A DNA stretch of 29,493 nt from positions 1 through 29,493 of the IMG/VR virus record IMGVR_UViG_3300046519_000258. One strand, given 5' to 3'. This document shows, one piece after another, positions 428 to 18,284 of this stretch. This stretch comes from a virus. Both the position numbers and the translations under genes were made by a program. Position 1 is the first letter of the stretch; every line of letters begins with the position of its first letter. The notes under the pieces are model-generated. The model was not told the DNA's origin. It searched no databases and worked only from the letters and a program-made list of their open reading frames with translations.

Positions 428-1837
428 GTGGCGAAGATACTTAAACCCAAGCCTTTCAGGGTTCTGCTGAAGGAGCACGCTCAGGTTGTATTTGATTTGC
501 TTGCAGATTTTAAAGCGGTCGACTCGAAAGGCAGATATCTCCATTGGCATGAGTTTAGCCGCAGGGTTAAATCGGGGATAAATAAAGAAGCGGCATGGGC
601 GGCTGTAAAGATTGCCAGATCAAGTGGTCTGAAGGATTTATCGCTCTTTAGCGAAGATCAGCAACCCTTCAAATTATATATGACCGATTACTGTCATAAA
701 GTTATTCATGATATCGAACAGCTAAGTGGCCGGTTAGGAGGAGTTGCCGGGTCATCGGCGGGTCACGGTCAGAATACTAAGTATTTAGTGGATTCATTGA
801 TGATGGAGGAGGCGATTTCAAGTGCTCAGCTAGAAGGCGCTGCTACAACGAGAAAGGCAGCAAAGGAAATGTTGGTTAAAGAAAGAGAGCCGCAAAATGA
901 TGACGAGAGGATGATTCTTAATAACTATCTTCTTATGCGGCACGCGAAGTATAATAAAGATCAGCCTCTTTCACTTGAGCTCATATGCGAGTTTCATATG
1001 ATAGCAACCTTAGGTGTTAAGGACGAGGAAGTTACTCCAGGAAGATTTCGAGAGACAGACGATATATTCGTTGGAGGCCGAGACGACGAGGTAGCCCACC
1101 AACCTCCCAAAGCCGATTTGCTTTTAGACCGTTTGGAAAATCTCTGTGCTTTCGCCAATGAAGCGCATGACGGACAGGATGGTAGGTTGTTCATTCACCC
1201 AGTAATCAAGGCTGTAATTCTCCACTTTATGATTGGCTATGAGCATCCTTTTCGGGATGGAAATGGCAGGACGGCAAGGTGCCTGTTCTACTGGTTCATG
1301 CTGAAAAGTGGATATTGGGCATTTGAGTACATATCGATAAGTGCTCTGCTAAAGCAGGCACCTGTCCAGTACGGGGAGTCATATCTTTTTACTGAGAATG
1401 ATGATTTTGATATGACGTACTTTGTATTGTATCAGCTAAAAATTATTGAGCGGGCAGTGGCTGAATTTATACAGTATTTTGAGAGTAAGAGAAGAGAGTT
1501 TTATGAGTTGATGAGCTGGCTGGATGAGTGTGGGATTAGTAAAACACTGAACTACCGGCAGGGGCATATGCTGAAGAAAATCATCCGTAATCCTGGAAGG
1601 ATCTTCATATCTAAAGAGTTGATACATGACTATGATATTTCGGAAAATACCGCGAGGAAAGATCTCGAGGGCTTGGTCGATCTCAAGGCCCTCGCAAAGA
1701 TAAAAGAAGGTAAGAGCTTTCTATATGTCGCGAGAAGTGATGCAGCAGAGAATCTTAGGCGGGGTAACGTCGATTTGAAAACTATAATCAGGAAGACAGA
1801 TTTGGGAGGCTTGCGGTATGAGCCGCCCAAGTCGTGA
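428..1837 (+). CDS. Fic family protein (AMP transferase type) with C-terminal winged helix
   Basis: A 469-residue Fic domain protein. The signature HPFRDGNGR is at residues 273-281, with His273 the expected catalytic base; family members transfer AMP or related groups from nucleotides to hydroxyls on target proteins. An inhibitory-helix motif of the (S/T)xxxE(G/N) type, SAQLEG, is at 132-137, which places the glutamate finger N-terminal to the Fic core (class II, self-restrained). The last 90 residues look like a winged helix (around 378-437). The start is a GTG with only a weak ribosome binding site. The gene is AT-rich, on the strand opposite to the early operon, and has no separate antitoxin gene. 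It is probably cargo affecting the host or competing phages; the target is unknown. Confidence 0.93.
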   Translation: MAKILKPKPFRVLLKEHAQVVFDLLADFKAVDSKGRYLHWHEFSRRVKSGINKEAAWAAVKIARSSGLKDLSLFSEDQQPFKLYMTDYCHKVIHDIEQLSGRLGGVAGSSAGHGQNTKYLVDSLMMEEAISSAQLEGAATTRKAAKEMLVKEREPQNDDERMILNNYLLMRHAKYNKDQPLSLELICEFHMIATLGVKDEEVTPGRFRETDDIFVGGRDDEVAHQPPKADLLLDRLENLCAFANEAHDGQDGRLFIHPVIKAVILHFMIGYEHPFRDGNGRTARCLFYWFMLKSGYWAFEYISISALLKQAPVQYGESYLFTENDDFDMTYFVLYQLKIIERAVAEFIQYFESKRREFYELMSWLDECGISKTLNYRQGHMLKKIIRNPGRIFISKELIHDYDISENTARKDLEGLVDLKALAKIKEGKSFLYVARSDAAENLRRGNVDLKTIIRKTDLGGLRYEPPKS

Positions 1838-1931: not shown

Positions 1932-2006
1932 ATTTGCTGAGATGAACGCGGGTTAGTGAAAGTCGAGCAGGCCCGTCATAGACCCGATAAGGTAGATGCG
2001 CTTCAT
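1932..2006 (-). pseudogene. Remnant of a DUF4406 gene with in-frame stop
   Basis: An ATG overlapping the stop of the next leftward gene (2003-2590) opens a frame reading MKRIYLIGSMTGLLDFH and then TAA at 1953-1955. The frame continues as PAFISAN before similarity fades. DUF4406 phage proteins begin much like MKRIYLAGPMTGL(P)-F-N-F-PAFH, so the match continues across the stop. What remains is the first 25 or so codons of a roughly 100-residue gene. The lost part adjoins the Fic gene, which suggests that arrival of Fic destroyed it. The comparison is from memory of the family. Confidence 0.7.
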
Positions 2007-2590
2007 GCTGCCACCTTCGGCGTGTAGGTCAGCGTGCCGGCAATGATCGCTTCCTTGATGGCCTCAAACTCCCAGGCGTAATACTGCGATTCCACGTAGA
2101 CGCGCATCTCGCCGTAGTCGTGCTGTTTACGCCGGATGAATGCCTCGGCCGCGTCTTTCGTGAAATGGCTGTTCACGATCTCCCAACGCTTGTTCCAGCC
2201 AGTAACGGCGTGATCGTCAAGCTCTCCGAGCAACTCCCACTGATCGTCGACGCTGAGCTCCGGGAAGTCGCATTCGTTGTCTGCTTGGACCCTGGCGTTC
2301 AGTTCGGCCTGGTCTTCCTCGTCGCAGTCCTCCCAGTATTCTTCATGGCTGAACCACGAGCAGTCCTCGCGGCAAACCACTAGGCCTTCCGCGTAATCCG
2401 GTTCAAAACCGTAATCAATGCGCTTGGTCTGCACGGTGAACAGCGCTGCCGCTGTGTGGTGCCATTTGACGCCGGCGCCGTTGCAGTCATGGCGAAGACG
2501 GGTCACGAAGTCGGCCCAGGTATCAGCGTCGAGGCGGTGTCCGGTTGCCAGGCTCGGCGCGGGCTCAGCGATTTGGTTTTCTGTAGGCAT
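2003..2590 (-). CDS. Hypothetical phage protein, 195 residues
   Basis: A soluble, acidic and tryptophan-rich protein with several His/Asp/Glu-rich stretches but no motif I can assign. Its high GC content and codon use match the core recombination genes. An AGGA-type ribosome binding site precedes the ATG at 2590. Its stop overlaps the start of the DUF4406 remnant, the translational coupling typical of this leftward operon. I believe similar proteins occur in other Pseudomonas prophages, but the function is unknown. Confidence 0.75.
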   Translation of the reverse strand: MPTENQIAEPAPSLATGHRLDADTWADFVTRLRHDCNGAGVKWHHTAAALFTVQTKRIDYGFEPDYAEGLVVCREDCSWFSHEEYWEDCDEEDQAELNARVQADNECDFPELSVDDQWELLGELDDHAVTGWNKRWEIVNSHFTKDAAEAFIRRKQHDYGEMRVYVESQYYAWEFEAIKEAIIAGTLTYTPKVAA

Positions 2591-2638
2591 GGGGAGTCCT
2601 CGCGGATATAGTTCGCGGTCTAAAGGGAGGGGGGTGTC

Positions 2639-3157
2639 ATGAGTTCGGCGAGTATTTTTCTATGGATTGAGCAACACCCGGGGTTGGCTTCGTGGGTTCA
2701 GGCAGTAGGCTCTATAATCGCCTTAATATTTGCTGTCTGGCTCCCTGCTCATGCCCGGTCTGCTGATAAAAAGAAGGCTGTGGACGGTCGCAAAGCACTC
2801 TTTATAGTTTTACTTGCTGATATAGAGCTGGTGATCTTGAACGATACTCCGGAAGGTCCATCTGCAAGGGTAGAAGCACTGTCAAACTTTCTAAAAAAAC
2901 TAGATGTGTTTCTTGCGAGTGAGACGAACCTCGAAATCGCCAGAGAGGTTATGGCAATCCGAGAAGGAACAAACAAACTACTAAAGAATGCTGGTACGGC
3001 ATACTTCGAAATTTTCTGGGATATCAATAGTTCGGATTTTCTTAGATTGATCCGTGAAGTGACAGTCCGAATGGTAGAAGGCTCGCCTGGTATTCTGCCT
3101 AAACCGAGTTCTCGAGCCGTTCCGATTACGCAGCCAGACGGCGGTAAAGCTCAATGA
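2639..3157 (+). CDS. Single-pass membrane protein, cargo gene
   Basis: A 172-residue protein with one membrane segment (about residues 19-36), followed by a basic stretch and a helical, probably cytoplasmic domain. A strong ribosome binding site (AAAGGGAGGGGGG) lies just upstream of the ATG. The gene is AT-rich and opposite to its neighbours. Its last 32 bases overlap, tail to tail, the end of the methyltransferase gene, so its final residues are read from the complement of that gene. This suggests it acquired its stop on insertion. The topology resembles small superinfection-exclusion or defence membrane proteins, but I do not recognise the family. Confidence 0.75.
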   Translation: MSSASIFLWIEQHPGLASWVQAVGSIIALIFAVWLPAHARSADKKKAVDGRKALFIVLLADIELVILNDTPEGPSARVEALSNFLKKLDVFLASETNLEIAREVMAIREGTNKLLKNAGTAYFEIFWDINSSDFLRLIREVTVRMVEGSPGILPKPSSRAVPITQPDGGKAQ

Positions 3158-5138
3158 TGTCGGCGGCGTTCGCCCTGACCAGGGCCTCGGCTTCGTCCGG
3201 ACAAACGCTGTTGCCGATGAGCCTGACCTGATTGGTCTTGTTGATCGGCAGCCACTGCTCGGCACCGGTGACCGGATCAACGAACAGGCCGCGGTCAATG
3301 ATGTAGTCCTTGTCGAAGCCCTGTGCGGCCTTCAGCTCTGGCGGTTGCAACATGCGTAAGGTGATGTCCACCAGCACGTACCCGCCGATCATGATCATCT
3401 CGGCCGGCTCCTTGAAATGCTCCGGCAGATGCTCGTGCATAAAGGCGGCGCAGCGGCGGGCGCCGGCCATCTGCTCTGGCGTCAGCGTGTCCGGCACCTG
3501 CACTACCTCGACCAAGGCCACCCGGTCCTTTGTCGGCAGGGTGTGCATTGGCTCTGTGAGGGATATGCCGTCCTTCTCTTTGCCGTAGTACTTCACCAGG
3601 TACGCGTTGGCCAGACGCTGATTGGCGCCCGACTGGCAGATGGTCGAGGCTGGCTGATATGCCGATCGACCGTCACCTTTGTAGAAGCCACCATTCGCCT
3701 GCTCGAAGAACGCAGCCGTTACTGCGTGGTGCCCGGTGCTGGTGGCGACCACGGCCAGAGGCCCATCAACGTCAGCCCCTACCGAGCCCTTGCGCAGCGT
3801 GACCATGTTCGCCGTGACGATCCCGTGACGCGCCGCCCCCGCCAGTACGGTCTGTGCAGGATCATCAGGCGAGCTTCCCACTGCGTTCTGCCCGAAGGCT
3901 GTCATGTGCCCACAGACAATGGCCTGTTCTCCGCGATTCGCGCCGGTGACCGTGCGTGCCGACTCGTCCGGCGAGTACCCGCTGCGCTCCCCGTGGTGAG
4001 TGAGGTGCGTCAGGTGACACGCCGCCATCGCGAAATGACCACCTTTCACCTGGGCAACCTGAGTGCGCAGTGCTTCCTGTACGTCAAAGTTACGCTGCGA
4101 TGACCCATTGGCGCATTCGGTGAGGAACGGCGCCGCCACGGGCTGCACCAGGCAGTGATGGGTGCCGCCGGCGCTGATGGTTGAAATCGATTCATCCACG
4201 CCGTGTGTGCTGGTGTGCGCTTCCGACGTCCCGCGCATCGGCACAATGAATGGCTTCTCACTGGTGATGACGTGGCGCCACATGCCCTTGGCCACCCGGC
4301 GGCGCGTATTCAGTGCCATAGGCTTGTCCCGGAAGATAGTCTTACCCAGGTTGCGCCAGTCAATGCACTCGGCTGCCGTGCGCCACGGCTGCTGTTTTGC
4401 CGTCGGATTCTTGTGACGTACGGGCTCCGGCCAAACGATCGGCAGACCGTCGCTGCGCGCAACCAGGTACAGGCGCTTGCGGATGGTTGGGGCGCCGGCG
4501 TTTGCCGCGATACGTTCGCGCCACTCGGCGTTGTAGCCCAGGCCACGCACCAGCGCTTCCTTCGGCACGAACTCGCCGATGGCTGCCACGATCTCCGGCA
4601 TGTCCGGGTGGTCGGCTGGCAACCCGGTGCTGATCGCGGCGATGAACGCCTTGAACGTGCGACCGCGCTCGGCCTTGATTGGCTGACCTTCCTCGTCGAT
4701 CGGGCCCCAGTCGCAGAACTCTTCGACGTTCTCGAGGAAGAGCAGTCGCGATTTGGTGACGAACAGCCAGCGAATGACGACCCACGCCAGCCCGCGAACA
4801 CCCCGGTCGCGAGGCGCACCGCCCTTGGCCTTACTGTGATGCCGGCAATCAGGCGAAGCCCATATGATTGCGACGGGCTGCCCACCAGTAGCTTCTCGCG
4901 GATCCACTTCGTAAACGTCAGCAACGTAGTGCGCTGTTTTTGGGTGGTTTGCTCGGTGAACGGCCAGGGCGATTGGATTATGGTTTACCGCTACGTCCGG
5001 CTCCCGGTACGCACGGGCAATCCCGGTGCTCGCTCCGCCTCCGCCGGCGAACAGATCCACCACCAGCTCTTTCTGGAATGGCAGGCCCATGCTCGGCTGG
5101 CCATGGATGAATGGGTGTTTTTTCTGTTGTGCGGACAT
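3126..5138 (-). CDS. DNA cytosine-C5 methyltransferase (phage type)
   Basis: A 670-residue enzyme that would methylate cytosine C5 using S-adenosylmethionine. Motif I is DLFAGGGGAS near the N-terminus. Motif IV is WASPDCRHHS, with SPDC in place of the usual PPC and its Cys as the expected nucleophile. Motif VI is FLENVEEF, motif VIII is RKRLYLVAR and the C-terminal GNSVCPDEA is motif X-like. The region before motif X (about 3.51-4.25 kb) contains roughly six degenerate repeats of about 30 residues instead of a normal target recognition domain. The ATG at 5138 was chosen for its GGAGG site seven bases upstream; a longer frame would run into the divergent gene. No restriction enzyme is adjacent, so self-protection of phage DNA is the likely role. 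Confidence 0.93.
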   Translation of the reverse strand: MSAQQKKHPFIHGQPSMGLPFQKELVVDLFAGGGGASTGIARAYREPDVAVNHNPIALAVHRANHPKTAHYVADVYEVDPREATGGQPVAIIWASPDCRHHSKAKGGAPRDRGVRGLAWVVIRWLFVTKSRLLFLENVEEFCDWGPIDEEGQPIKAERGRTFKAFIAAISTGLPADHPDMPEIVAAIGEFVPKEALVRGLGYNAEWRERIAANAGAPTIRKRLYLVARSDGLPIVWPEPVRHKNPTAKQQPWRTAAECIDWRNLGKTIFRDKPMALNTRRRVAKGMWRHVITSEKPFIVPMRGTSEAHTSTHGVDESISTISAGGTHHCLVQPVAAPFLTECANGSSQRNFDVQEALRTQVAQVKGGHFAMAACHLTHLTHHGERSGYSPDESARTVTGANRGEQAIVCGHMTAFGQNAVGSSPDDPAQTVLAGAARHGIVTANMVTLRKGSVGADVDGPLAVVATSTGHHAVTAAFFEQANGGFYKGDGRSAYQPASTICQSGANQRLANAYLVKYYGKEKDGISLTEPMHTLPTKDRVALVEVVQVPDTLTPEQMAGARRCAAFMHEHLPEHFKEPAEMIMIGGYVLVDITLRMLQPPELKAAQGFDKDYIIDRGLFVDPVTGAEQWLPINKTNQVRLIGNSVCPDEAEALVRANAADIIELYRRLAA

Positions 5139-5148
5139 AGATTGGCCT

Positions 5149-5162
5149 CCAATGTATATTGG
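5149..5162. repeat. 14-bp palindromic sequence upstream of the methyltransferase
   Basis: CCAAT-GTAT-ATTGG is a 5+5 inverted repeat that touches the ribosome binding site of the methyltransferase gene. It lies in the 49-base gap between that gene and the divergent membrane protein gene. It could be an operator for either gene. Its short length makes chance occurrence possible. Confidence 0.4.
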
Positions 5163-5187
5163 GACTAGGGATTTTAAGGAGTTGGGG

Positions 5188-5841
5188 ATGAGCGTTTTTT
5201 GTATGTCTATGACGGACGTTGACTGGTCTCTTACGAAAGATTTTTTTTCCGTTATTGGAGCGGTATTCACGGCGCTAGGAGTAACTATCGCTTCAATTGT
5301 TGCTGTGATCGGCCTTGCTACATGGAGAAAACAAATCAGAGGGGCAAATGATCACGAGCTATCTCGGCGAATGCTGATTGAGTTGTATAAGTTCAAAAAG
5401 GCATTTAATCATGCCCGTAATCCGGCGATTTATTCATATGAAGTTAGTGAAGAGGGGGATCCTGTTTTTTCAACTAGTCCGACAGGTCGATTCCTGCGTC
5501 AACAGCTTGGTTTCAAACGCAGAATAGAAAACTTCAACAAAGAATATTCTTCTCTGTCAGTTTCAATGTATGAAGCGGAAGCGCTTTGGGGTAAGGATGT
5601 AGTGCACGCTTTTCGTGCAATCGAGTTGATGAAAGATGAGTACGAGGAGTATGTCGGTTTAAAAATGCTGACTATAGATCCCGAAGAGCCGGCGGAAGAC
5701 CGTGAGGACCATCTTGAGTCTTTCAACACTAGACGGTCAGTTTTCAAAAGCAGGTGGGGCGCGGTGGATACGTTCGGAGTTGAATTGGAGACCTTATTAT
5801 TTAGACTTGAAAAATTGCTTAAAGCGAAACTTGTAGGGTAG
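5188..5841 (+). CDS. Membrane-anchored protein, cargo gene
   Basis: A 217-residue protein with one strongly hydrophobic segment (about residues 19-45), then WRKQIRG and a charged helical region with an ELYKF and HARNP stretch. I associate this layout with a widespread unnamed family found in prophages and islands. AAGGAG lies seven bases before the ATG at 5188, which fixes the start; the longer frame upstream is antisense to the methyltransferase. The gene is AT-rich, divergent from the methyltransferase by 49 bases and opposite to the early operon. Expression from its own promoter is likely. Function is unknown; a membrane-bound exclusion role is a guess. Confidence 0.78.
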   Translation: MSVFCMSMTDVDWSLTKDFFSVIGAVFTALGVTIASIVAVIGLATWRKQIRGANDHELSRRMLIELYKFKKAFNHARNPAIYSYEVSEEGDPVFSTSPTGRFLRQQLGFKRRIENFNKEYSSLSVSMYEAEALWGKDVVHAFRAIELMKDEYEEYVGLKMLTIDPEEPAEDREDHLESFNTRRSVFKSRWGAVDTFGVELETLLFRLEKLLKAKLVG

Positions 5842-5952
5842 CTCTGCAAAAGAATACTCAGCACTCACAAATGACTTCATGTGTCTCTGGCGTGATTCGT
5901 TGATATGGGGTATTACGGGTGACCGGCATGGAGCCGGATCAAGGAGAATCAA

Positions 5953-6210
5953 ATGGCTACCGATTTCACAAAGGGCCGATACAACGTCTACTCGGGCCGA
6001 GGCCCAGCAGCACCCCTGATTGGTCGTATCGACGAAGATGAGTTCGTACGAAGCAATACCGGCGAACTGATATACCGAATTGATGGTGATGAGGTGTACA
6101 CCGCCGGGCCCGGTGCAAAATTTGTTGGTAGCATTTCAGAAACAGAGGAAGGGCGCGCAATGGTTGTGGATGCCAACCATTACGCTCATCTCACCATTGT
6201 TCCCGCGTAA
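5953..6210 (+). CDS. Small beta-rich protein, possibly beta-flower type
   Basis: An 85-residue protein made of short repeats in which an aromatic or hydrophobic pair alternates with Gly and Asp (VYSGRG, IGRIDEDE, IYRIDGDEVY, FVGSI). This pattern suggests a small closed beta structure such as the four-fold beta-flower domain. That assignment is tentative. AAGGAG is seven bases before the ATG. The gene is on the plus strand and converges on the YejK gene 14 bases away. A CCGGC/GCCGG hairpin lies just upstream. Its GC content is closer to the core genes than that of neighbouring cargo. Confidence 0.7.
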   Translation: MATDFTKGRYNVYSGRGPAAPLIGRIDEDEFVRSNTGELIYRIDGDEVYTAGPGAKFVGSISETEEGRAMVVDANHYAHLTIVPA

Positions 6211-6224
6211 ACAACCTGCAGACA

Positions 6225-7232
6225 TCAGCCGCCTGCACGTTTTAGCTGATCGGTGAGCTGAGTCGGAAGGTTGCGCAGCGTAAGCGTGCCGCCTGCTTCG
6301 TCAAACTCGATCTTGTCGCCCAGCAGGTGCGCTTCGAAGCTGATCGACATGCCCTCAGCCCGGCCGGTGAAGCGCCGGAATTTGTTGAGGGTCTTCTTGT
6401 CCGGCGGAAGGGTCTCAGAAAGCCCATAGTCCTTGGCCTTGATGAAGTCGTAGAAGCTGCGCGGCTGGTCTTCGTCGATCAGCCCCGACAGTTCGTCGAG
6501 CGTGATCGGCTCGCCCAGCTTGGCCTGAGCCATTGAGTAGCTGACCAGGGTGTTCGTCTTCTCACGCGCCGATTCCTCGCCAAGATCCTCGCTTTCAACA
6601 AAGTCGCTGAACGCCTTCAACAGCGTCCGGGTTTCGCCTGGGCCGTCGATCCCTTCCTGGCAGCCGATGAAGTCGCGGAAATACTCGCTGAACTTCCGAC
6701 CCTGCTTACCCTTCAGGTAGGAAATGTACTGTTTCGACTGCGGGTTGTTCTTCCACTCGCTGATGTTTATGCGAGCGGCCAGGCGGATGTGATCTAGGTC
6801 CAAGCGCTTCACCGTCATCAGGTTCAGCTCTTCGGTGATGGTCACCGCTTCGGTTTCCTGTACCAAGGCGATGACCAGGTAATCGGTCAGGCCCTGCTGG
6901 TAGTGGCAGAAGAGGGCGTGCCCGCCGGTGCTGAGGTTTGACTCTTCCATCAGCTTGATCAGGTGCTCGACGGCGGTGGTGCTGAACTCCAAGAAACTGG
7001 AGCCGCCGGCCAGGTACTGGCTGAGCCAGCCGCTGAGTGGGTGGGCGCCCGACTCGGCGTGAAAGAAGCCCCAGGCCTTACCAGCGGTGGCGTTGTAGTT
7101 TTCGTTGAACTGCTGCATCAGGTCGTCACGGGCTTGGCTTTCAACCTGCTCAATTGAGGCCAGATGAAGCACCGCTGGGCTGCCGTCGGGCTTCTTGTCG
7201 ATTTTGTGGATTGCACTGTGGCGTACGGGCAT
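6225..7232 (-). CDS. yejK: Nucleoid-associated protein YejK/NdpA family
   Basis: A 335-residue protein matching the YejK (NdpA, 37-kDa nucleoid-associated) family in length and overall sequence style, including the N-terminal region starting [14 protein letters not shown] and the HFTSx-type core. Family members bind the nucleoid. In a phage recombination operon it may organise or protect replicating DNA, which is inference. A GAGG site precedes the ATG. It sits between the methyltransferase and the HTH/exonuclease genes on the same strand, with two plus-strand cargo genes on either side. The gene is intact and near normal family length. Confidence 0.85.
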
Positions 7233-7339
7233 TTTATAAACCTCGGGTCAGTTTGGCTCTACGAAAGTTGGCATAAAGCCAACAAAGTTAGTGTTATTCT
7301 CGCGGGGCTGTTATTTGCTAACCAAAATGGGGTTTCTCA

Positions 7340-8149
7340 ATGGTCAGGAATTTTTTATCAAGATTAAGATCAACGTGCGCCGCCAATGCCTTAGGTATCG
7401 GTGTGGCTATTGCGATACTAATGATTTTGTTTACGTCACTTAACTATTTTTCTAACTTTCCCAAGGTAAAATCTACCGATCAAGCAATATGGGGGCAGTT
7501 TGGTGATTACTTCGGTGGTGTTCTGAATCCACTTCTGTCTTTTATGGCTTTGGTTGGCCTGTTTTTTAATCTTCGTTCGCAACAAGAGGAGGGTAAAAAA
7601 GCAGCAAGGCGTCATGATGATGAAACATTCGAGACCCGATTATTTCAGTTGTTATCTTTGAGCCATTCATCAGTGCTAGCCGTAAAATTTGTAGATGTAG
7701 TGAATCCCCTTAAGTCGGTTGAGTATGAAGGGCATCGGGGTGTGGCTTTCTCGCTGAACAAGCTTCAAGAGGATTACCTTTATAAGGTGCCCAGGGTGAA
7801 AGCAGAGGAGATGTATGAGGCTTTGTTGCCTGCGTTTAATAAGTGGAAGCGCGATTACTGGCCGGGCGTCGCCAGTTATTTAGAGTCAATGCTTTTTTTA
7901 ATGGCTTATGTAGTTGATAACAGTCCGGCGGGTAGGGATGTAGATTTTTCGATGCGGGCAGTATTGTCTCAAATGTCTTCTGACGAGAAATTGTTAGTTT
8001 ATTATGTGATGATCTTTTCACCTCGACAAAAATTCATTTTCTCTGACTTGCTAGAGAAAGAGTTTCTTAATAGTTCTTCTTATGATGATTTGGCCCCCTA
8101 CAGAAGAGCACTTATGCATAGCGCTGTTCTATATCGGCTGACACCATAA
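7340..8149 (+). CDS. AbiC-like putative phage abortive infection protein
   Basis: A 269-residue protein with two N-terminal membrane segments (about 17-37 and 59-80). Between and after them it carries the sequence WGQFGDYFGGVLNPLLSF, which I recognise as characteristic of the putative AbiC family of phage abortive infection proteins. After the second segment comes a helical cytoplasmic domain with FETRLFQLLSL. The family is implicated in aborting infection by other phages, by an unknown mechanism. The gene is AT-rich and divergent from yejK. A GTTGGC-ATAAA-GCCAAC hairpin lies in the 107-base gap before it. The start has only a weak GGGG-type ribosome binding site. It is probably expressed in the lysogen. 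Confidence 0.82.
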   Translation: MVRNFLSRLRSTCAANALGIGVAIAILMILFTSLNYFSNFPKVKSTDQAIWGQFGDYFGGVLNPLLSFMALVGLFFNLRSQQEEGKKAARRHDDETFETRLFQLLSLSHSSVLAVKFVDVVNPLKSVEYEGHRGVAFSLNKLQEDYLYKVPRVKAEEMYEALLPAFNKWKRDYWPGVASYLESMLFLMAYVVDNSPAGRDVDFSMRAVLSQMSSDEKLLVYYVMIFSPRQKFIFSDLLEKEFLNSSSYDDLAPYRRALMHSAVLYRLTP

Positions 8150-8165
8150 TCTCCTGTTAGAATAT

Positions 8166-8414
8166 TTAAGTGAAAATCTGATATGGGCTGCCTCCTACAT
8201 CCTCATCGTCCATCTGGAGTGATTTGGCAAAGCCTGCTTGTCGCAACTTTCGCGCCACGCTCTCGGATATGTCGATTTTGTGGCGCTGGATTTTCAGCAT
8301 CGGAGAAGACTTTATGGGGCCCAGAGAGTGTGCATGCGCTATGAGCCTTTGAATCGTGCGTCGGTGCTTCGTCTCCCCCAGCTCAGCGGTGAGGCTGTAC
8401 AGCCTATCGCGCAT
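8166..8414 (-). CDS. Hypothetical protein, 82 residues
   Basis: A basic, helical protein with no recognised motif. It starts three bases after the stop of the next upstream gene, as expected for an operon. The ribosome binding site is poor (TAGGG almost abutting the ATG), so translation may depend on coupling. It converges on the AbiC-like gene 16 bases away, so its 3' end may have been altered by that insertion. Composition is intermediate between core and cargo. The call rests on operon position. Confidence 0.5.
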   Translation of the reverse strand: MRDRLYSLTAELGETKHRRTIQRLIAHAHSLGPIKSSPMLKIQRHKIDISESVARKLRQAGFAKSLQMDDEDVGGSPYQIFT

Positions 8415-8417
8415 GCC

Positions 8418-8669
8418 CTATCTGAAGTAGTGCCGAATGATCTCCGACGGGCCGGACACCTTCGGCGGCGTCGGCGGCAAGTCCTTGGGCTTTGCATTTA
8501 AAACCAGCAGCTGCACGGCCTCGCTGATTTCATTGAGCTTATGCCATTGCATCAGCTCGCTGAGCATGGCCCGTGTGCCGCACTGGACCGTGTGCCTCAA
8601 CTCTTGTTCGCCCAGCTCCTGCCGCTTCTGGGCAAGCTTGGCTGTGCGTTCCTTCTGTTCGGCTGCCAT
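8418..8669 (-). CDS. Small helical phage protein, 83 residues
   Basis: A charged protein whose first 45 residues are predicted helical (KERTAKLAQKRQELGEQEL), with a proline-rich tail. The ribosome binding site GAGGT is placed well before the ATG. High GC and position between the HTH-like protein and the 82-residue protein support a real gene in the leftward operon. I do not recognise a functional domain. The plus-strand readings of this region lack ribosome binding sites. Confidence 0.68.
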   Translation of the reverse strand: MAAEQKERTAKLAQKRQELGEQELRHTVQCGTRAMLSELMQWHKLNEISEAVQLLVLNAKPKDLPPTPPKVSGPSEIIRHYFR

Positions 8670-8738
8670 GGCCTACCTCTTCTATTCCGCTGGCCGGCAG
8701 TGCGAGCCAGGTTTGACGTTTTCGTTGCTGGATGCGGG

Positions 8739-9332
8739 CTATGCGGCGCATGAAGTGCTGCCACGTTGCGCTTTGGGGTAGTCGATGCCGTGGGCGGCAA
8801 TGATCCGCTCGAAGGCCTTGTTGCCGATCGCCAGTTTGCCGCAGCACTGGCGGCGGGTGATGCCCAGCTCCAGGAAGGCGCGAATCCGCTCGGCGTACTT
8901 CGCGTCGCGGGCCTGAACCTGTTCGCTTCGAACTGCGCCGTTGGCGCCGCCCCGGGTCGGCTTCTTGAAGGTAATGCCGTACTCCTTCGCGAAGCTGTAG
9001 AGGGTGCGCCGGCTCAGGCCCAGGGCTACCGATGCTTCCGTCTGCGTGTGCGTGGCGCCCAGTTCGCGAATACGCTCGGCGAGCTCGTCGCGTTCCTGCT
9101 GGCGAATATCTTTCGAGTGCAGGGGCAGGGGAGTCGCCTCAACCCGCCGGCGAACAAACGGCTTCGGCGCCGGCGGCATCTGGTTGCTGTAGGTGATTGG
9201 TTTGGGCTTGTAGTTGTAAGCCGGGGCCTGCTCGATCTCGCCGCCGGCTGCCACAAACTGGGCGACCTGGGCCGCCAGTTCATCCGAGGCCGGGCGCAGT
9301 GCCTCGACCAGGCTGAGGTGGTTGCTGATCAT
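8739..9332 (-). CDS. Putative DNA-binding protein with two HTH-like segments
   Basis: A 197-residue protein. Residues near 100-125 (TEASVALGLSRRTLYSFAKEYGI region) and 160-190 (TRRQCCGKLAIGNKAFERI) both have the spacing of helix-turn-helix units, so it may bind DNA as a regulator or recombination accessory. The ATG at 9332 overlaps the stop of the exonuclease gene, giving tight coupling, and was preferred over a longer frame that lies inside that gene. High GC suggests a core phage gene. No enzymatic motif is visible. Confidence 0.7.
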   Translation of the reverse strand: MISNHLSLVEALRPASDELAAQVAQFVAAGGEIEQAPAYNYKPKPITYSNQMPPAPKPFVRRRVEATPLPLHSKDIRQQERDELAERIRELGATHTQTEASVALGLSRRTLYSFAKEYGITFKKPTRGGANGAVRSEQVQARDAKYAERIRAFLELGITRRQCCGKLAIGNKAFERIIAAHGIDYPKAQRGSTSCAA

Positions 9333-9946
9333 GCTGCGATCCCCAGGACCTGGTTCATGCGCTCGTCGAGGATTTCGTAGAAGGTCGCCACACGCTCGGT
9401 GAGCTTGCGGATCATCGCTTCGTCCCGGTAGGCGCGCTTGATGAACAGAGGCATGCCTGGCCAGTAGCAAACGAAGTCGATCCACTCACGCTCGGAGATC
9501 CACAAGCCGCCTTGGCACTGAGCGACGTGCTCCTTTGGGATCTCGCCGGACAGGATCACTTCAACCTGAAACTTCGGCAGCTTGGTTTTGATCTCGGTCA
9601 GGCCTTTGGGCCCGACCAGCGAGTCTGGCGAGTAGCCGGCGCCGTGGTTGAGGATGATTGCAACCTGGTTCGTTTCAACCTCTTCGCGATCCTCGTAGAG
9701 CTTTCGGGCAACGCCTTCAAGCTCATGGCCGCGCTCGGTGTGGCGGTTGCCTTGGAAGGGGTCAGCAGCCTCGCCGGTGATGCGCTCGCCGATCAAGGTA
9801 TTCATGTAGGTGAAAGCACCGGCGCCGAATCCGGCCTCACCTTTACCGTTAACCAGCAGGCACTCCAGTTCGGAGCAGGTGACGATACCCAGGCGCAGTG
9901 CCAGCCACTCTGGCGAGCCCTGCTGTATTTCAGTGATGATCTGCAT
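9329..9946 (-). CDS. YqaJ/lambda-exonuclease family viral recombinase
   Basis: A 205-residue PD-(D/E)xK nuclease of the YqaJ type. The N-terminus has QGSPEWLALRLG (helix that contacts DNA ends). ERGHELEG at 71-78 supplies the acidic residue, SPDSLVG contains Asp108, and TEIKTK gives Glu118 and Lys120. AQCQGGLWI follows. These enzymes digest the 5' strand of double-stranded ends to make a substrate for an annealing protein. The ERF-family gene lies three bases upstream, so the two form a Red-like recombination pair. Length is normal and all catalytic residues are present. Confidence 0.92.
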   Translation of the reverse strand: MQIITEIQQGSPEWLALRLGIVTCSELECLLVNGKGEAGFGAGAFTYMNTLIGERITGEAADPFQGNRHTERGHELEGVARKLYEDREEVETNQVAIILNHGAGYSPDSLVGPKGLTEIKTKLPKFQVEVILSGEIPKEHVAQCQGGLWISEREWIDFVCYWPGMPLFIKRAYRDEAMIRKLTERVATFYEILDERMNQVLGIAA

Positions 9947-9949
9947 GGC

Positions 9950-10711
9950 TTACTCCTGTGGCCGGCTGGCGGCTTTGGTGATTCGAGCCGACACGGTGTC
10001 GAACTCGGACTTGAAGACGTTGGCGGCGCAGCCGTACTTGGCTGCGAAGTTGTCCTGCAGCACCTGGCTGCACTTTTTGAGCAGAGCGTCGAGCTGCGCG
10101 GCCTGGCCAGCGGTGATGACTGGCTCGGTCGGGGCGGCGGGTTTTTGGTTTGCGGTTTGACCGTCGTCGTCCTCACCGGTGGTCGTGAAGTTGAGCAGCG
10201 CGCCAGCGGTGTAGCGCTTGCCGTAGCTAACCGAGCTGGCGACCGCCTGAACGGCGTTTTTACTGCCCGTAGTGTCAGCAGGAAGCAAAATCGATGTGGT
10301 TTCTCGATGGCCTTCTTTGTGGCTCAGCACGCCTTCAACCTCGACACCATTCGCGCCGCGAGGTATGCGAAACGAGAGAGCAAACCCGTGCTTTGCAAGA
10401 ATGGGTTTCAGCTCCTCGTTGATGTCTTCCCAGAGGGCATAGGTCGATTGCACGTTCTTGAACTTGTCGCGGATGGCGCCACGCTCGCGAATCACCGGGA
10501 GCTTTTTCTGCATCTCGGCCATTGCGGCATCAAATGCCTGTTTCGCCAGCCTGTCCTGGTGCTGCTGATGCATCACCATCAACCTTTCCATCTTGTCGAT
10601 ATCAGCGGCCGGGTCGGTGGCCACCTGCTGAATGATCGCCATGATCGTGGCGGATTCGCTTTGCACGGCCGGCAAGCGCTCGACCTTGTCCTTCACTGCA
10701 AGATTGCTCAT
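9950..10711 (-). CDS. ERF family single-strand annealing protein
   Basis: A 253-residue protein with the ERF core: AFDAAMAEMQKKLP, YALWEDINEELKPILAKHGFAL, then the conserved SSVSYGKRYTAGALL segment. ERF proteins (P22 type) anneal complementary single strands made by the partner exonuclease, which is encoded immediately downstream. The C-terminal tail is variable and probably helps bind other proteins. A short gap of seven bases separates it from the coiled-coil gene upstream. Phage recombination, and possibly circularisation of the genome after infection, is the expected role. Confidence 0.92.
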   Translation of the reverse strand: MSNLAVKDKVERLPAVQSESATIMAIIQQVATDPAADIDKMERLMVMHQQHQDRLAKQAFDAAMAEMQKKLPVIRERGAIRDKFKNVQSTYALWEDINEELKPILAKHGFALSFRIPRGANGVEVEGVLSHKEGHRETTSILLPADTTGSKNAVQAVASSVSYGKRYTAGALLNFTTTGEDDDGQTANQKPAAPTEPVITAGQAAQLDALLKKCSQVLQDNFAAKYGCAANVFKSEFDTVSARITKAASRPQE

Positions 10712-10718
10712 GGCGACC

Positions 10719-11876
10719 TCAGTATTGAATTGAAATGGCGGGGATCTTCCGCTGGGCGATCAACTTGATGGCTTGCTTAGCGCACTCTTCTGTCATTCCG
10801 CCGGCAACAAATGCCTTCAGCGCTGCGCCGTTGATTGACCGTTGATGTTCAAGGTCAGCCTCACGCGCTGCTGCCTGGCGCAGGGCCTCGTCAGCGGCTG
10901 CGTTCGCCCTGGCTACTTCTGCCAGTCGTGCCTGCTCGACGGCTTCTTCCTGCCGTCGGATGGCCGCAAGTCGTTCCTGCTCGGCGCGCTGCTCAGTGGC
11001 GATGCGGTTCGTCTCGGCCTGTGCCGCTGCTGCGCGGGACTGTTCGGCCTGCAGCTCCAGTTGTAGGCGCTGGCGTTCGGCGGCTGCCTCGGCGTCCAGT
11101 GCTGCCTGTGCAGCGGCACGTTGAGTCGCGGCTGCCTGGTCCAGCAGTTCCTGCTCGCGACGGGCGGCAGCTTCGCGCTCGACCTGGGCCTTCTGCTCGG
11201 CTTGGAGCCGCGCCTGTTCGGCGGCAACCCTGGCAATCTCTGCGTCACGGTCGCGCTGGGCCTGTGCTTCAGCTTCGGCGCGCAACCGGACCAGTTCGGC
11301 CTGCTCCGCTTCGTACTGGGTGCGCTCGGCCAGCAGGGCGCGCAGCTTTACGAGGGTCTGGTCTTTCACCTGGGCGGCTTCAGCCAGGAACTCTTCCCAT
11401 GTTTCGCTGATTGCGACCAACTCAAGCTGGGCGATGAGGTCGGCGACATGAGCGGCGGTCGGTGTGGACTCGAAAACGGCCAGATCCTTGATCGCCTGGA
11501 TACCGTCAACATGCTTGTCGGTGCGGGCCAGTTCTGCTGCTTCCCAGTCCGTCAGCGGCTGCCGGGTGGCATCGCGCAGGGCATCCATCTTGGTCACGAA
11601 CTCGCGTAGCTCAGCTTCGACCACCTTGGGCATTTCCTTGAGGCGCTTCAGGTAATCGCGGCCGGGTGTTTCGACTGCCTTTTTGGACTTGCTCACCGTT
11701 GCGGCCAGAGAAGCAATGCGCTCTCGGCCCTTGCGGGTGGTCAGATCGGGAACCTCGGCGGTGACTTCGGCCTTCACCGCGTCGAAGAACTGGCCCAGGC
11801 CACCGGCAACGTAAATCGCCGGCGCGTTGTCGGCGCTGATGTCGTCAATGGTGATGACTTGCTGTTGTGCGGACAT
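10719..11876 (-). CDS. Long coiled-coil protein of the recombination operon
   Basis: A 385-residue protein. Residues 1-175 form a globular helical head; roughly 175-345 is an uninterrupted Ala/Glu/Arg/Gln-rich coiled coil; the last 35 residues form a small conserved-looking tail. Proteins of this design are common beside phage annealing proteins and may act as scaffolds or recombination accessories. That is inference. AAGGA precedes the ATG at 11876. The protein starts MSAQQQ, much like the methyltransferase (MSAQQKK). The extreme repetitiveness of the coiled coil makes the complementary strand look open in several frames. Confidence 0.8.
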   Translation of the reverse strand: MSAQQQVITIDDISADNAPAIYVAGGLGQFFDAVKAEVTAEVPDLTTRKGRERIASLAATVSKSKKAVETPGRDYLKRLKEMPKVVEAELREFVTKMDALRDATRQPLTDWEAAELARTDKHVDGIQAIKDLAVFESTPTAAHVADLIAQLELVAISETWEEFLAEAAQVKDQTLVKLRALLAERTQYEAEQAELVRLRAEAEAQAQRDRDAEIARVAAEQARLQAEQKAQVEREAAARREQELLDQAAATQRAAAQAALDAEAAAERQRLQLELQAEQSRAAAAQAETNRIATEQRAEQERLAAIRRQEEAVEQARLAEVARANAAADEALRQAAAREADLEHQRSINGAALKAFVAGGMTEECAKQAIKLIAQRKIPAISIQY

Positions 11877-11919
11877 GGGGATTCCTTGCCGCGATGCTCG
11901 CAGCGATTGAAGGTGTTAG

Positions 11920-12036
11920 TTATTGAGGTATTCGATCAGCGAGGGCGCTGAGCAACATCAGGAATGTGCAGACGGAGAGGGCAGAGAAGGAGCCGCGCCA
12001 GATGAGCAGGCGCCGGGTGCGCTGGCGGGTGGTCAC
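11920..12036 (-). CDS. 38-residue single-pass membrane protein
   Basis: A short gene starting at a GTG that overlaps the stop of the gene before it (GTGA). It encodes a basic N-terminus (TTRQRTRRLLIWRG) followed by a hydrophobic helix (about residues 16-32) and a short tail, with TAA at 11920-11922. The positive-inside layout and translational coupling argue that it is real despite its size. It sits between the 64-residue protein and the coiled-coil gene in the leftward operon. Function unknown. Confidence 0.6.
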   Translation of the reverse strand: MTTRQRTRRLLIWRGSFSALSVCTFLMLLSALADRIPQ

Positions 12037-12227
12037 GGCCGAACCTTCACGGCAATTCGACCGCCCTTCATCGTCGCCGCCAAGCGCTTGGGCAGCGTGG
12101 CTACGGCACGCTCACGCGGCTGGCCGATCACTTCATTGAAGGGAAGGCCGAAGCCCAGCATGATTAGCTTCGACTCAACGTCGTCGAGCTGCTCGTCGAT
12201 CAGTGATTTAACCGGTGCGGTGGTCAT
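12033..12227 (-). CDS. Hypothetical protein, 64 residues
   Basis: A small protein with an acidic N-terminal half (LIDEQLDDVESK) and a basic C-terminal half. GGAGG lies seven bases before the ATG. The gene overlaps both neighbours by four bases, so it is translationally coupled in the leftward operon. No family is recognised. The codon pattern matches the core genes. Confidence 0.7.
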   Translation of the reverse strand: MTTAPVKSLIDEQLDDVESKLIMLGFGLPFNEVIGQPRERAVATLPKRLAATMKGGRIAVKVRP

Positions 12228-12415
12228 GCGGCCTCCTTGCGCTGCCGGCTGGTCTTCAGCAGCCAGGCGCTGTAGTAGTGGAACTCTTCGGCGTTGATGG
12301 CGCCGGAAGTGAAGTGGCGGACAATCAGGCCCTCAGTCAGCGACTCGGTCAGATCTGTCGTGTCTGGATGCTCAAGAGCGAGAAGGGAGGTGGTTATCGC
12401 GACGTGCGGGCTCAC
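12224..12415 (-). CDS. Hypothetical protein, 63 residues
   Basis: A small protein with one amphipathic C-terminal helix (FHYYSAWLLKTSRQRKEAA). It starts at a GTG overlapping the stop of the gene upstream and ends overlapping the start of the next, a chain of four-base overlaps that is strong evidence of an operon. The ribosome binding site is weak, consistent with coupling. Function is unknown. Confidence 0.65.
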   Translation of the reverse strand: MSPHVAITTSLLALEHPDTTDLTESLTEGLIVRHFTSGAINAEEFHYYSAWLLKTSRQRKEAA

Positions 12416-12849
12416 AGCTCTGCATCCACGTCGTCTTCTGCCTCTTCCCGCTCTGCTGCTACCGCGTCGGCGGCATACGGCCTCAGCAGCGCTAAAGCGA
12501 TCTTCTCGACCGCCTCAATGGGCCGTTGCTGACCCAGCAGGTCAGCGGCGTGGGCCCGGGCATCGCTCTGGCTGCCGAGCATTGCCGACAGCAGCAGCCG
12601 GGCAAACGAGTCGCGCTGATCCAGGCCGTCGATCTGGCGCTGGTTCAGGTGGCCCTGCAGCACCGTACAGAACCGGTCGAACGTCACGACTTGCGGCTGG
12701 CCGTAGCGGCGCTTCCACTTGATGTCGACGCCGCACACCAGGCGCTCCGCCGAATGCTCAAGCCAGTCCGTCACCTCGTCGCTCTCGCTGACCTCTGGAG
12801 GCAACTGAGCGTCATAACGCTCCTGGCATATCTTCAATGCTGCGTTCAT
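12412..12849 (-). CDS. Hypothetical phage protein, 145 residues
   Basis: A soluble protein containing DIKWKRRYGQPQVVTFDRF, then a helical half and a highly acidic tail (EREEAEDDVDAEL). The ATG at 12849 has GGAGG five bases upstream. A GTG at 12894 also has a good site (GGGAGG, five bases) and would give 160 residues; I preferred the shorter form by appearance of the N-terminus. It leads a tightly overlapping group of four small genes. No functional motif is recognised. Confidence 0.7.
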   Translation of the reverse strand: MNAALKICQERYDAQLPPEVSESDEVTDWLEHSAERLVCGVDIKWKRRYGQPQVVTFDRFCTVLQGHLNQRQIDGLDQRDSFARLLLSAMLGSQSDARAHAADLLGQQRPIEAVEKIALALLRPYAADAVAAEREEAEDDVDAEL

Positions 12850-13073
12850 GGTCGCCTCCAAGGTGGCGGGTTGTTCACCTGTATTCGTCAACACTCATGC
12901 CTCCCGCTGGTTGCCGATGGGCGCGGGGGAGGAGTGCTGACGTAATAGAGGTGGGGAAGGGGCCGCGGGGATGCCGGCGGAAGAACGTCAACAGTCTGCT
13001 AGGATTCAGACTGCTGTCCGGGAGAAAGGCAGATCCTTTTTGCCCGCTATGAATGACTACTTAGGGAAAAGAC

Positions 13074-17549: not shown

Positions 17550-18284
17550 CTAAAGCTTCCGGGCATTCCAGACAAGCAGGACGCGAGCCTGGATATGCAC
17601 TTTGGCGAGCATATCGCCCTCGATCATGATTGCCGGATACACAGGGTTATCTGAAATCATGCGCAGGGAGCCGCCTGTCAGGCGCTGAAGCCGCTTAATG
17701 AAAAGCTCGCCCTCCAACGTGAAGACATAGATCGCGTCTGTTCGAATCTCGGTGATGCCGCGATCTACCAGCAGGGCGTCGCCGTTACGGAACGTGCCCT
17801 CCATGCTGTCACCATCGCCATCGATGATGGCCAGGTTCTCTAGCTTGGAATACGACAAACCCTGAGTCTTGAGCCAGTCAAGGTGAACGGTGATATCCCT
17901 GATCACCTCGATATGGTCAGGTGGCACTCTTCCAGGCCCCATCGAGCCAGCTACATCTAGCTGGGGGATGGTGATGAAGTTGGCGTCCCGAGACTTCCTT
18001 CGCGAATCAATAGGAATCACGTTGCTCTCCCTGGCGTCGCGTTCACCAATCGGGGCATCTAGCGCGTATCTGGCAAGGCCGAATTCGCTTTCTATTTCCC
18101 GCGCGAAGTCCTCTCCAATGGTTTTTGCGCCGTTTTTTTCCGGCTCAAAAAGACATCTGGAGATGAAGTTCTGAGGCTTCTTCAGCTTTTCTGCGAGGCG
18201 CGACTGTGCGCCGCGAGCGCCAACCCCGTATTCGGTGTCCATCAGCTTTTTTAGGTTGTGCCTGCGCACTTCGCGAATATCCAT
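17550..18284 (-). CDS. CI-like repressor, HTH plus S24 peptidase domain
   Basis: A 244-residue repressor. The N-terminal 70 residues carry the DNA-binding domain (RLAEKLKKPQNFISRCL as the HTH). The C-terminal half is a LexA/S24 domain with GDGDSMEGTFRNGD containing Ser160, and GELFIKRLQR containing Lys197, the catalytic dyad. A possible self-cleavage Ala-Gly is at 112-113 in LDVAGSMGPG, so RecA-driven induction by DNA damage is expected. It diverges from the Cro-like gene across three operators and probably also acts at the two sites at PL. Five further genes follow it in the same direction up to a terminator at 15.35 kb. Confidence 0.93.
   Translation of the reverse strand: MDIREVRRHNLKKLMDTEYGVGARGAQSRLAEKLKKPQNFISRCLFEPEKNGAKTIGEDFAREIESEFGLARYALDAPIGERDARESNVIPIDSRRKSRDANFITIPQLDVAGSMGPGRVPPDHIEVIRDITVHLDWLKTQGLSYSKLENLAIIDGDGDSMEGTFRNGDALLVDRGITEIRTDAIYVFTLEGELFIKRLQRLTGGSLRMISDNPVYPAIMIEGDMLAKVHIQARVLLVWNARKL

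Follow-up and report, generated by a model that had tools for sequence, protein, structure and literature searches.

The window, i.e., the whole stretch of 29,493 nucleotides that was analysed, belongs to a temperate Pseudomonas phage and has a lambda-like arrangement. Its leftward operon includes genes for an Erf-type annealing protein (9950-10711) and a YqaJ-type exonuclease (9329-9946), which together occupy 9329..10711 on the minus strand and were assigned by profile match, as well as the phrog_5439 and NA37/NdpA genes. From the ORF translations, the gene at 17550-18284 is presumably of the repressor type, the rightward genes from about 19.3 kb are taken to be replication-type genes, and a gene near 27.6 kb is taken to be terminase-like. 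Between the phrog_5439 and NA37 genes, on the opposite strand, lies the ORF 7340-8149 (plus strand), which starts with ATG and encodes a product of 269 amino acids. This placement against the recombination genes had been recognised in the first-pass annotation of the locus, and it holds, with 7340 on the plus strand and the YqaJ-type and Erf-type genes running leftward. The ORF is a genuine gene, far beyond chance, and was assigned to the AbiC/putAbiC superfamily of membrane proteins on the basis of homology and a structural model. The closest relative of the protein shows 66% identity, with a dN of 0.27 versus a dS of 2.7, the latter being near saturation.

Hydropathy places the two membrane segments that had been annotated earlier at about residues 13-31 and 58-76, and the AlphaFold2 model (mean pLDDT 92, pTM 0.75) is consistent with them in having two N-terminal helices. 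In the model, a helix at residues 17-39, which corresponds to the predicted first membrane helix (7388..7456), is followed by a short loop, a long helix at 48-113, a beta hairpin and a helical domain. Residues 36-79 (7445..7576) form a conserved YxxxF...WGQFGDYFGGVLNPxLSF anchor, delimited from the homologue alignment and the model, which consists of the motif and the beginning of the second membrane helix; WGQFGDYFGGVLNPLLSF, which had also been pointed out before, is present in the translation. The near-invariant stretch of the family extends from about W51 to Q81, and the residues G55, D56, G59, G60, L62, N63 and P64 are unchanged across 61 homologues. According to the model and the alignments, the remaining part (7577..8146) encodes the long helix leaving the membrane, the beta hairpin and a helical cytoplasmic domain, and its product aligns with the putAbiC region (RAxxxQxSxxE). 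Since positive charges are found at the N-terminus and behind the second membrane segment, the sequence suggests that both ends of the protein are cytoplasmic. A fold comparison of the model with the PDB and with viral models produced no hit that reached E 0.001, and its middling Z values, which are typical of helix bundles, make it uninformative. No relative turned up either when the family profile was searched against the sequences of proteins with a known structure.

The gene is flanked on the left by the NA37/NdpA gene for a nucleoid-associated protein (6225..7232, minus strand), identified by profile matches, and on the right by the phrog_5439 gene (8166..8669, minus strand, about 167 codons), identified by phrog_5439 matches and by its relatives. 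In the latter, an in-frame stop occupies 8418-8420 and leaves two ORFs in the same frame, of which 8418-8669 matches the first half of phrog_5439 and 8166-8414 the second. Two related loci, L001 and L019, carry the gene as one uninterrupted ORF, and the internal stop is absent from the other closely related copies examined. The shared frame, the single in-frame stop and the intact copies in related phages together indicate one broken gene, and the ORF 8166-8414 with its 82 residues is, by this comparison, its 3' half and no separate gene. The 16 bases between 7340-8149 and the opposite-strand ORF ending at 8166 were counted correctly in the first-pass annotation, which misread this half of a stop-split gene as an 82-residue gene in its own right. 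Programmed recoding of the split gene was considered and rejected as a general rule, the related copies examined being without the stop.

With a GC content of 41.7% and a GC3 of 41.5%, where the neighbouring NA37 gene has 59% and 80%, 7340-8149 is foreign-looking in composition and unlike the phage core; leftward genes in the stretch 2003-12894 range from 53 to 64% in GC and from 62 to 80% in GC3. The counter-oriented genes at 428, 2639, 5026 and 7340 all lie between 41.7 and 46.4% GC. The first of them (428..1837, plus strand, GC 44.4%) encodes a Fic-domain protein according to a domain match and its composition. A third counter-oriented gene (5026..5841, plus strand, GC 43.5%), recognised by its ORF, its hydropathy and its composition, has one predicted membrane segment, probably starts in reality near 5188-5203, and occupies the methyltransferase junction of the window. 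The fourth (2639..3157, plus strand, GC 46.4%) encodes a predicted membrane protein by the same three lines of evidence. These low-GC genes to the left of the repressor (428-1837, 2639-3157 and 5026-5841) are candidate cargo. Across NA37 from 7340-8149, a second slot is occupied by a counter-oriented gene of 85 amino acids (5953..6210, plus strand), which was recognised by its ORF and by the match to a shared leader described below.

Relatives of the 7340-8149 protein were found at 28 loci in viral contigs and at 80 loci in genomes ranging from Pseudomonas to Betaproteobacteria and Chryseobacterium. In every related locus with a recognisable operon gene (about two dozen), the AbiC-like gene opposes the leftward operon. 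Its exact position varies: it adjoins phrog_5439 in the window, L001 and L019, lies on the far side of NA37 in L004, and stands beside a cytosine methyltransferase gene in L007, L015, L017, L018 and others.

The relationship to AbiC depends on the level at which it is examined. Direct scans of the single protein against Pfam, NCBIfam and PADLOC gave no usable match: putAbiC (PF16872, curated cut-off 22 bits) returned nothing up to E 10, so that the protein is not filed under PF16872, the PADLOC AbiC model did not match, and PADLOC AbiP (PDLC02351) matched only weakly (12.3 bits, E 0.032). Among the 28 viral relatives, putAbiC is matched by 13 (best E 1.2e-11), with L022, L011 and L023 exceeding the curated cut-off; PADLOC AbiP gives weak matches in 13 (best 2.8e-7), and PADLOC AbiC is matched by two. 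As a yardstick, the AbiC of the Lactococcus plasmid p275A was used, i.e., the AbiC named in PMC6458302, which scores 441 bits against PADLOC AbiC and is above the putAbiC cut-off as well. A profile of the phage relatives (A1) detects this protein at E 1.6e-6, the best of 200 shuffles reaching 4.2. Because hhalign with AbiC as a single sequence was weak (9%), profile-profile comparison was adopted, in which a profile restricted to the eight sequences closest to the 7340-8149 protein (A3) was aligned with a set of six putAbiC proteins (A5), namely p275A AbiC and five plasmid-encoded proteins whose annotation is that of a putative phage abortive infection protein. This gave a probability of 99.2% and E 6e-20 over 188 columns, reaching from the anchor to the QLSxxE region, while the controls (one reversed, 20 column-shuffled) remained at or below 0.3%. 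On these sequence profiles, the 7340-8149 family is homologous to AbiC at the superfamily level, a distant but firm relationship, and the protein itself is a divergent AbiC relative. The earlier designation as an AbiC-type protein can therefore be kept in the superfamily sense, given the profile-profile result with its controls and the 13 of 28 relatives that match putAbiC, and not in the sense of the curated model; the lack of a match to an AbiC profile applies to the single protein, while its relatives and the profile-profile comparison do match.

PF14355, which goes by the name AbiC in PMC8649781, was set aside as a similarly named family, with no match in the protein or in any of the 28 relatives. 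Two outlying loci are also worth recording. In the Z region of Enterobacteria phage P2-EC45 (L111), the family occurs in a two-gene form, the anchor being encoded by one ORF and a putAbiC-like domain by the ORF next to it, both of which carry an annotation as lysogenic conversion proteins. On a plasmid of Cupriavidus pauculus (L116), a putAbiC relative has a DUF3375 gene on one side and a HEPN-domain gene on the other, surroundings that are possibly a defence island.

The interval between the NA37 and phrog_5439 genes (7233..8165) is a cargo slot, or hotspot, as is apparent from a comparison of 53 phage contigs, which were collected by both anchor proteins (NA37 and phrog_5439) and in which the interval between them was measured. 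Its length varies between 58 bp, which was measured in two slots, and 2309 bp. When the longest ORF of each interval was compared with dinucleotide-preserving shuffles of that interval (p <= 0.02), it was significant and antisense to the operon in 34 of the 53 contigs and significant and sense in none, a ratio that overstates the number of events, since the contigs share ancestry and are not independent. The direction of the slot cargo, counter to the operon, is nevertheless clear. Of the occupants, 47 have a length of 80 amino acids or more and fall into about 30 groups (blastp, E 1e-3), a rough count because some of the ORFs take in shared leader sequence. A Pfam and PADLOC scan of 40 proteins, namely that of the window and 39 other occupants, revealed matches to putAbiC (3.7e-16), TIR-TM (4.2e-52) and RelA/SpoT (2.5e-18), and further to 8xMP, DUF4145, a lambda ea8.5-like domain and a PD-T7-4-like protein; some of the occupants scanned are without a defence-like match.

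Judging from their sequences, AbiC-type proteins appear to have entered the slot more than once, as the type of the window and L001, as that of L019, and as that of L127 and L128, whose slot proteins have an FGDAFG anchor and an LLSDYE region. The occupants of L139, L146, L179 and L220 carry an N-terminal LNELGDFxAGxFxPxAFLWLVLG anchor with another C-terminal domain. The comparison of this anchor with that of the 7340 family reached a probability of only 41.7%, and an anchor module common to both families is possible at the sequence level. In the isolated phages phiAH14a and PseuP_222, this operon likewise contains single genes in counter-orientation, and in PseuP_222 such genes lie on either side of the NdpA gene.

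Slot cargo genes that are otherwise unrelated share a sequence upstream, referred to here as the leader. Its core comprises GGGGTATTACGGGTGA and a hairpin CCGGC-N5-GCCGG, which is followed after a few bases by AAGGAG and then by the start codon. In the window it precedes the ORF 5953-6210 (5892..5954, plus strand; E 3.7e-17, with the core exact and 0 expected) and comprises GGGGTATTACGGGTGA, the hairpin CCGGC-ATGGA-GCCGG, AAGGAG and the start codon of that ORF. A scan of viral contigs for the exact 40-base form yielded 93 stretches. Behind 92 of 94 leader copies there is an ORF of at least 35 amino acids, these falling into about 46 unrelated groups of small proteins, and the distance from AAGGAG to the start codon is mostly 5-7 nt. 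In this wider set, the longest ORF flanking the leader is antisense to it in 67 of 91 cases on the upstream side and in 58 of 90 on the downstream side, so that counter-orientation is common in this set and not universal. The hairpin shows 96% standard pairs over 39 copies and three double-sided changes, which exceed all 500 shuffles; as the remaining measures are weaker, the sequence comparison makes the hairpin likely rather than proven. The leader also occurs in named Pseudomonas phages such as phiAH14a, PseuP_222 and UFJF_PfDIW6. Some slots contain two copies, as in L155 (3385-3497 and 3876-3988), L141 (2600 and 3929) and L127 (3610 and 3929), and these tandem copies suggest that cargo is added together with its leader, one such unit at a time.

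With a covariance model, significant leader copies were detected in many loci of the AbiC family, always on the strand of the AbiC-like gene, and in L003, L004, L010 and L019 the leader is located directly before it. The region upstream of 7340 in the window (7233..7339) is divergent, as seen by slot alignment and covariance model, with only its NA37-proximal end conserved. A leader ahead of 7340 was rejected, as this region gives a hairpin-only match with E 0.64 and no recognisable copy of the core. TATTCT in 7233..7339 is a candidate -10 element, as TATTAC may be in the leader.

Taking these observations together, we consider 7340-8149 to be probably prophage-expressed cargo (a moron) of the AbiC superfamily in a lambda-like Pseudomonas phage, by which rival phages are excluded or aborted. 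This is the reading that best accommodates the single counter-oriented genes, the repressed operon, the foreign composition and the defence-type content of the slot, and strong expression in lysogeny has often been described for prophage accessory genes (PMC7067206). A rightward promoter of its own would drive the gene in lysogens, and the cytoplasmic domain may, by analogy with AbiC- and AbiP-type proteins, sense a component of the infecting phage, whereupon the anchor would oligomerise or perturb the membrane, so that phage growth is halted and the cell is lost. At induction, the leftward early transcript would be antisense to 7340-8149, because it must cross the gene to reach NA37. A scan for minus-strand terminator-like sites found none within 7340-8149, the nearest following NA37; this is weak evidence, the simple promoter and terminator scan giving counts near chance.

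The arrangement resembles that of SieB in lambda and P22, a lone counter-oriented exclusion-type gene inside the leftward early operon. In lambda, a plus-strand ORF, which we take to be sieB, lies between the minus-strand genes ral and N and ends against N. In P22, sieB is controlled by the sas antisense RNA (PMC7067206, PMC12197685), and in the same manner the leftward transcript may silence 7340-8149, whereby self-exclusion would be avoided. The family profiles A1 and A2 did not report lambda SieB, so that no sequence relation was found with them, and unlike in sieB, no Esc-like product from an internal start was identified in 7340-8149. More tentatively, the same may apply to lambda-like phages of Pseudomonas in general, in that a portable leader makes the cargo active in lysogens and counter-orientation provides antisense shut-off at induction, as a general form of self-immunity. 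The leader would then combine promoter, 5' hairpin and ribosome-binding site, a proposal we advance with equal reserve.

Rather unlikely, although the strongest of the alternatives, is superinfection exclusion, in which the protein blocks the injection of related phage genomes and the cell survives, which would make it a Sie and not an Abi protein. The prophage cargo context is compatible with this, and the most conserved residues are located in the two-helix anchor and not in the cytoplasmic domain; however, the AbiC homology spans the cytoplasmic domain, which would be superfluous in a pure entry blocker. We regard as improbable a lysogenic conversion gene that serves host fitness apart from phage defence, which could account for the slot occupants without a defence-like match, but agrees poorly with the AbiC homology and with the several defence-type domains among the others. 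Still less probable is the model of the first-pass annotation, according to which rightward transcription of 7340 reduces the phage's own leftward recombination operon. It can draw on convergent genes only 16 bp apart with no terminator-like site found between them, but selection acts on the protein (dN well below dS) and unrelated genes are swapped through the slot, which together suggest that the protein matters rather than one antisense RNA. No evidence for such interference was obtained, and the direction is probably the reverse. In every case that could be judged, slot cargo, like this protein family in other slots, runs counter to the operon, which agrees with prophage-expressed cargo, and the P22 precedent of sieB and sas runs from the lytic transcript to the exclusion gene. 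A lytic-cycle gene of the phage itself, for a membrane-associated replication or lysis factor, would explain a membrane protein encoded by a phage genome and is very improbable for a gene that is missing from most relatives with the same slot, opposes the early operon and is low in GC.

Prophages need to protect their host without hindering their own induction, and the avoidance of self-exclusion is known in few cases. The consistent counter-orientation of unrelated cargo offers a testable general answer if the preferred reading as prophage-expressed defence cargo applies, namely that the lytic transcript silences the cargo. Slot and leader also provide a sequence handle by which new defence genes that do not yet have a name can be found in phages of Pseudomonas. 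In addition, a widespread phage family of Gram-negative bacteria is now tied to lactococcal AbiC. In the open-access literature, neither such a hotspot nor such a leader was found to be described for phages of Pseudomonas, a scope within which silence does not prove novelty, and no close relative was found to have been examined in a protection assay.

Lactococcus AbiC (PF16872) and the 7340-8149 protein have in common two N-terminal membrane segments, visible in the p275A sequence as two hydrophobic stretches, a TLxxQ helix by which the chain leaves the membrane, and a cytoplasmic domain with an RxQLSxxE region. In contrast to 7340-8149, the lactococcal gene is located on a plasmid in a Gram-positive host, and p275A AbiC is without the WGQFGDYFGG motif of the phage family. 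AbiP of Lactococcus is a similar case of a membrane-anchored Abi protein, described as nucleic-acid binding (cited in PMC10127798), although the AbiP model reaches the window's protein only with the weak score given above. As a fixed slot with interchangeable and often defence-type cargo, the interval resembles the hotspots of P2-like phages and P4-like satellites (PMC9122126), which belong to another phage group, whereas here the slot is situated within the leftward early operon and the cargo opposes it. The leader is comparable to the SAS/ESAS of cluster K mycobacteriophages (PMC3203893), a repeated element right before the start codons of unrelated genes, but differs from it in sequence and host, in its 5-bp hairpin before AAGGAG and in its location mostly on counter-oriented cargo.
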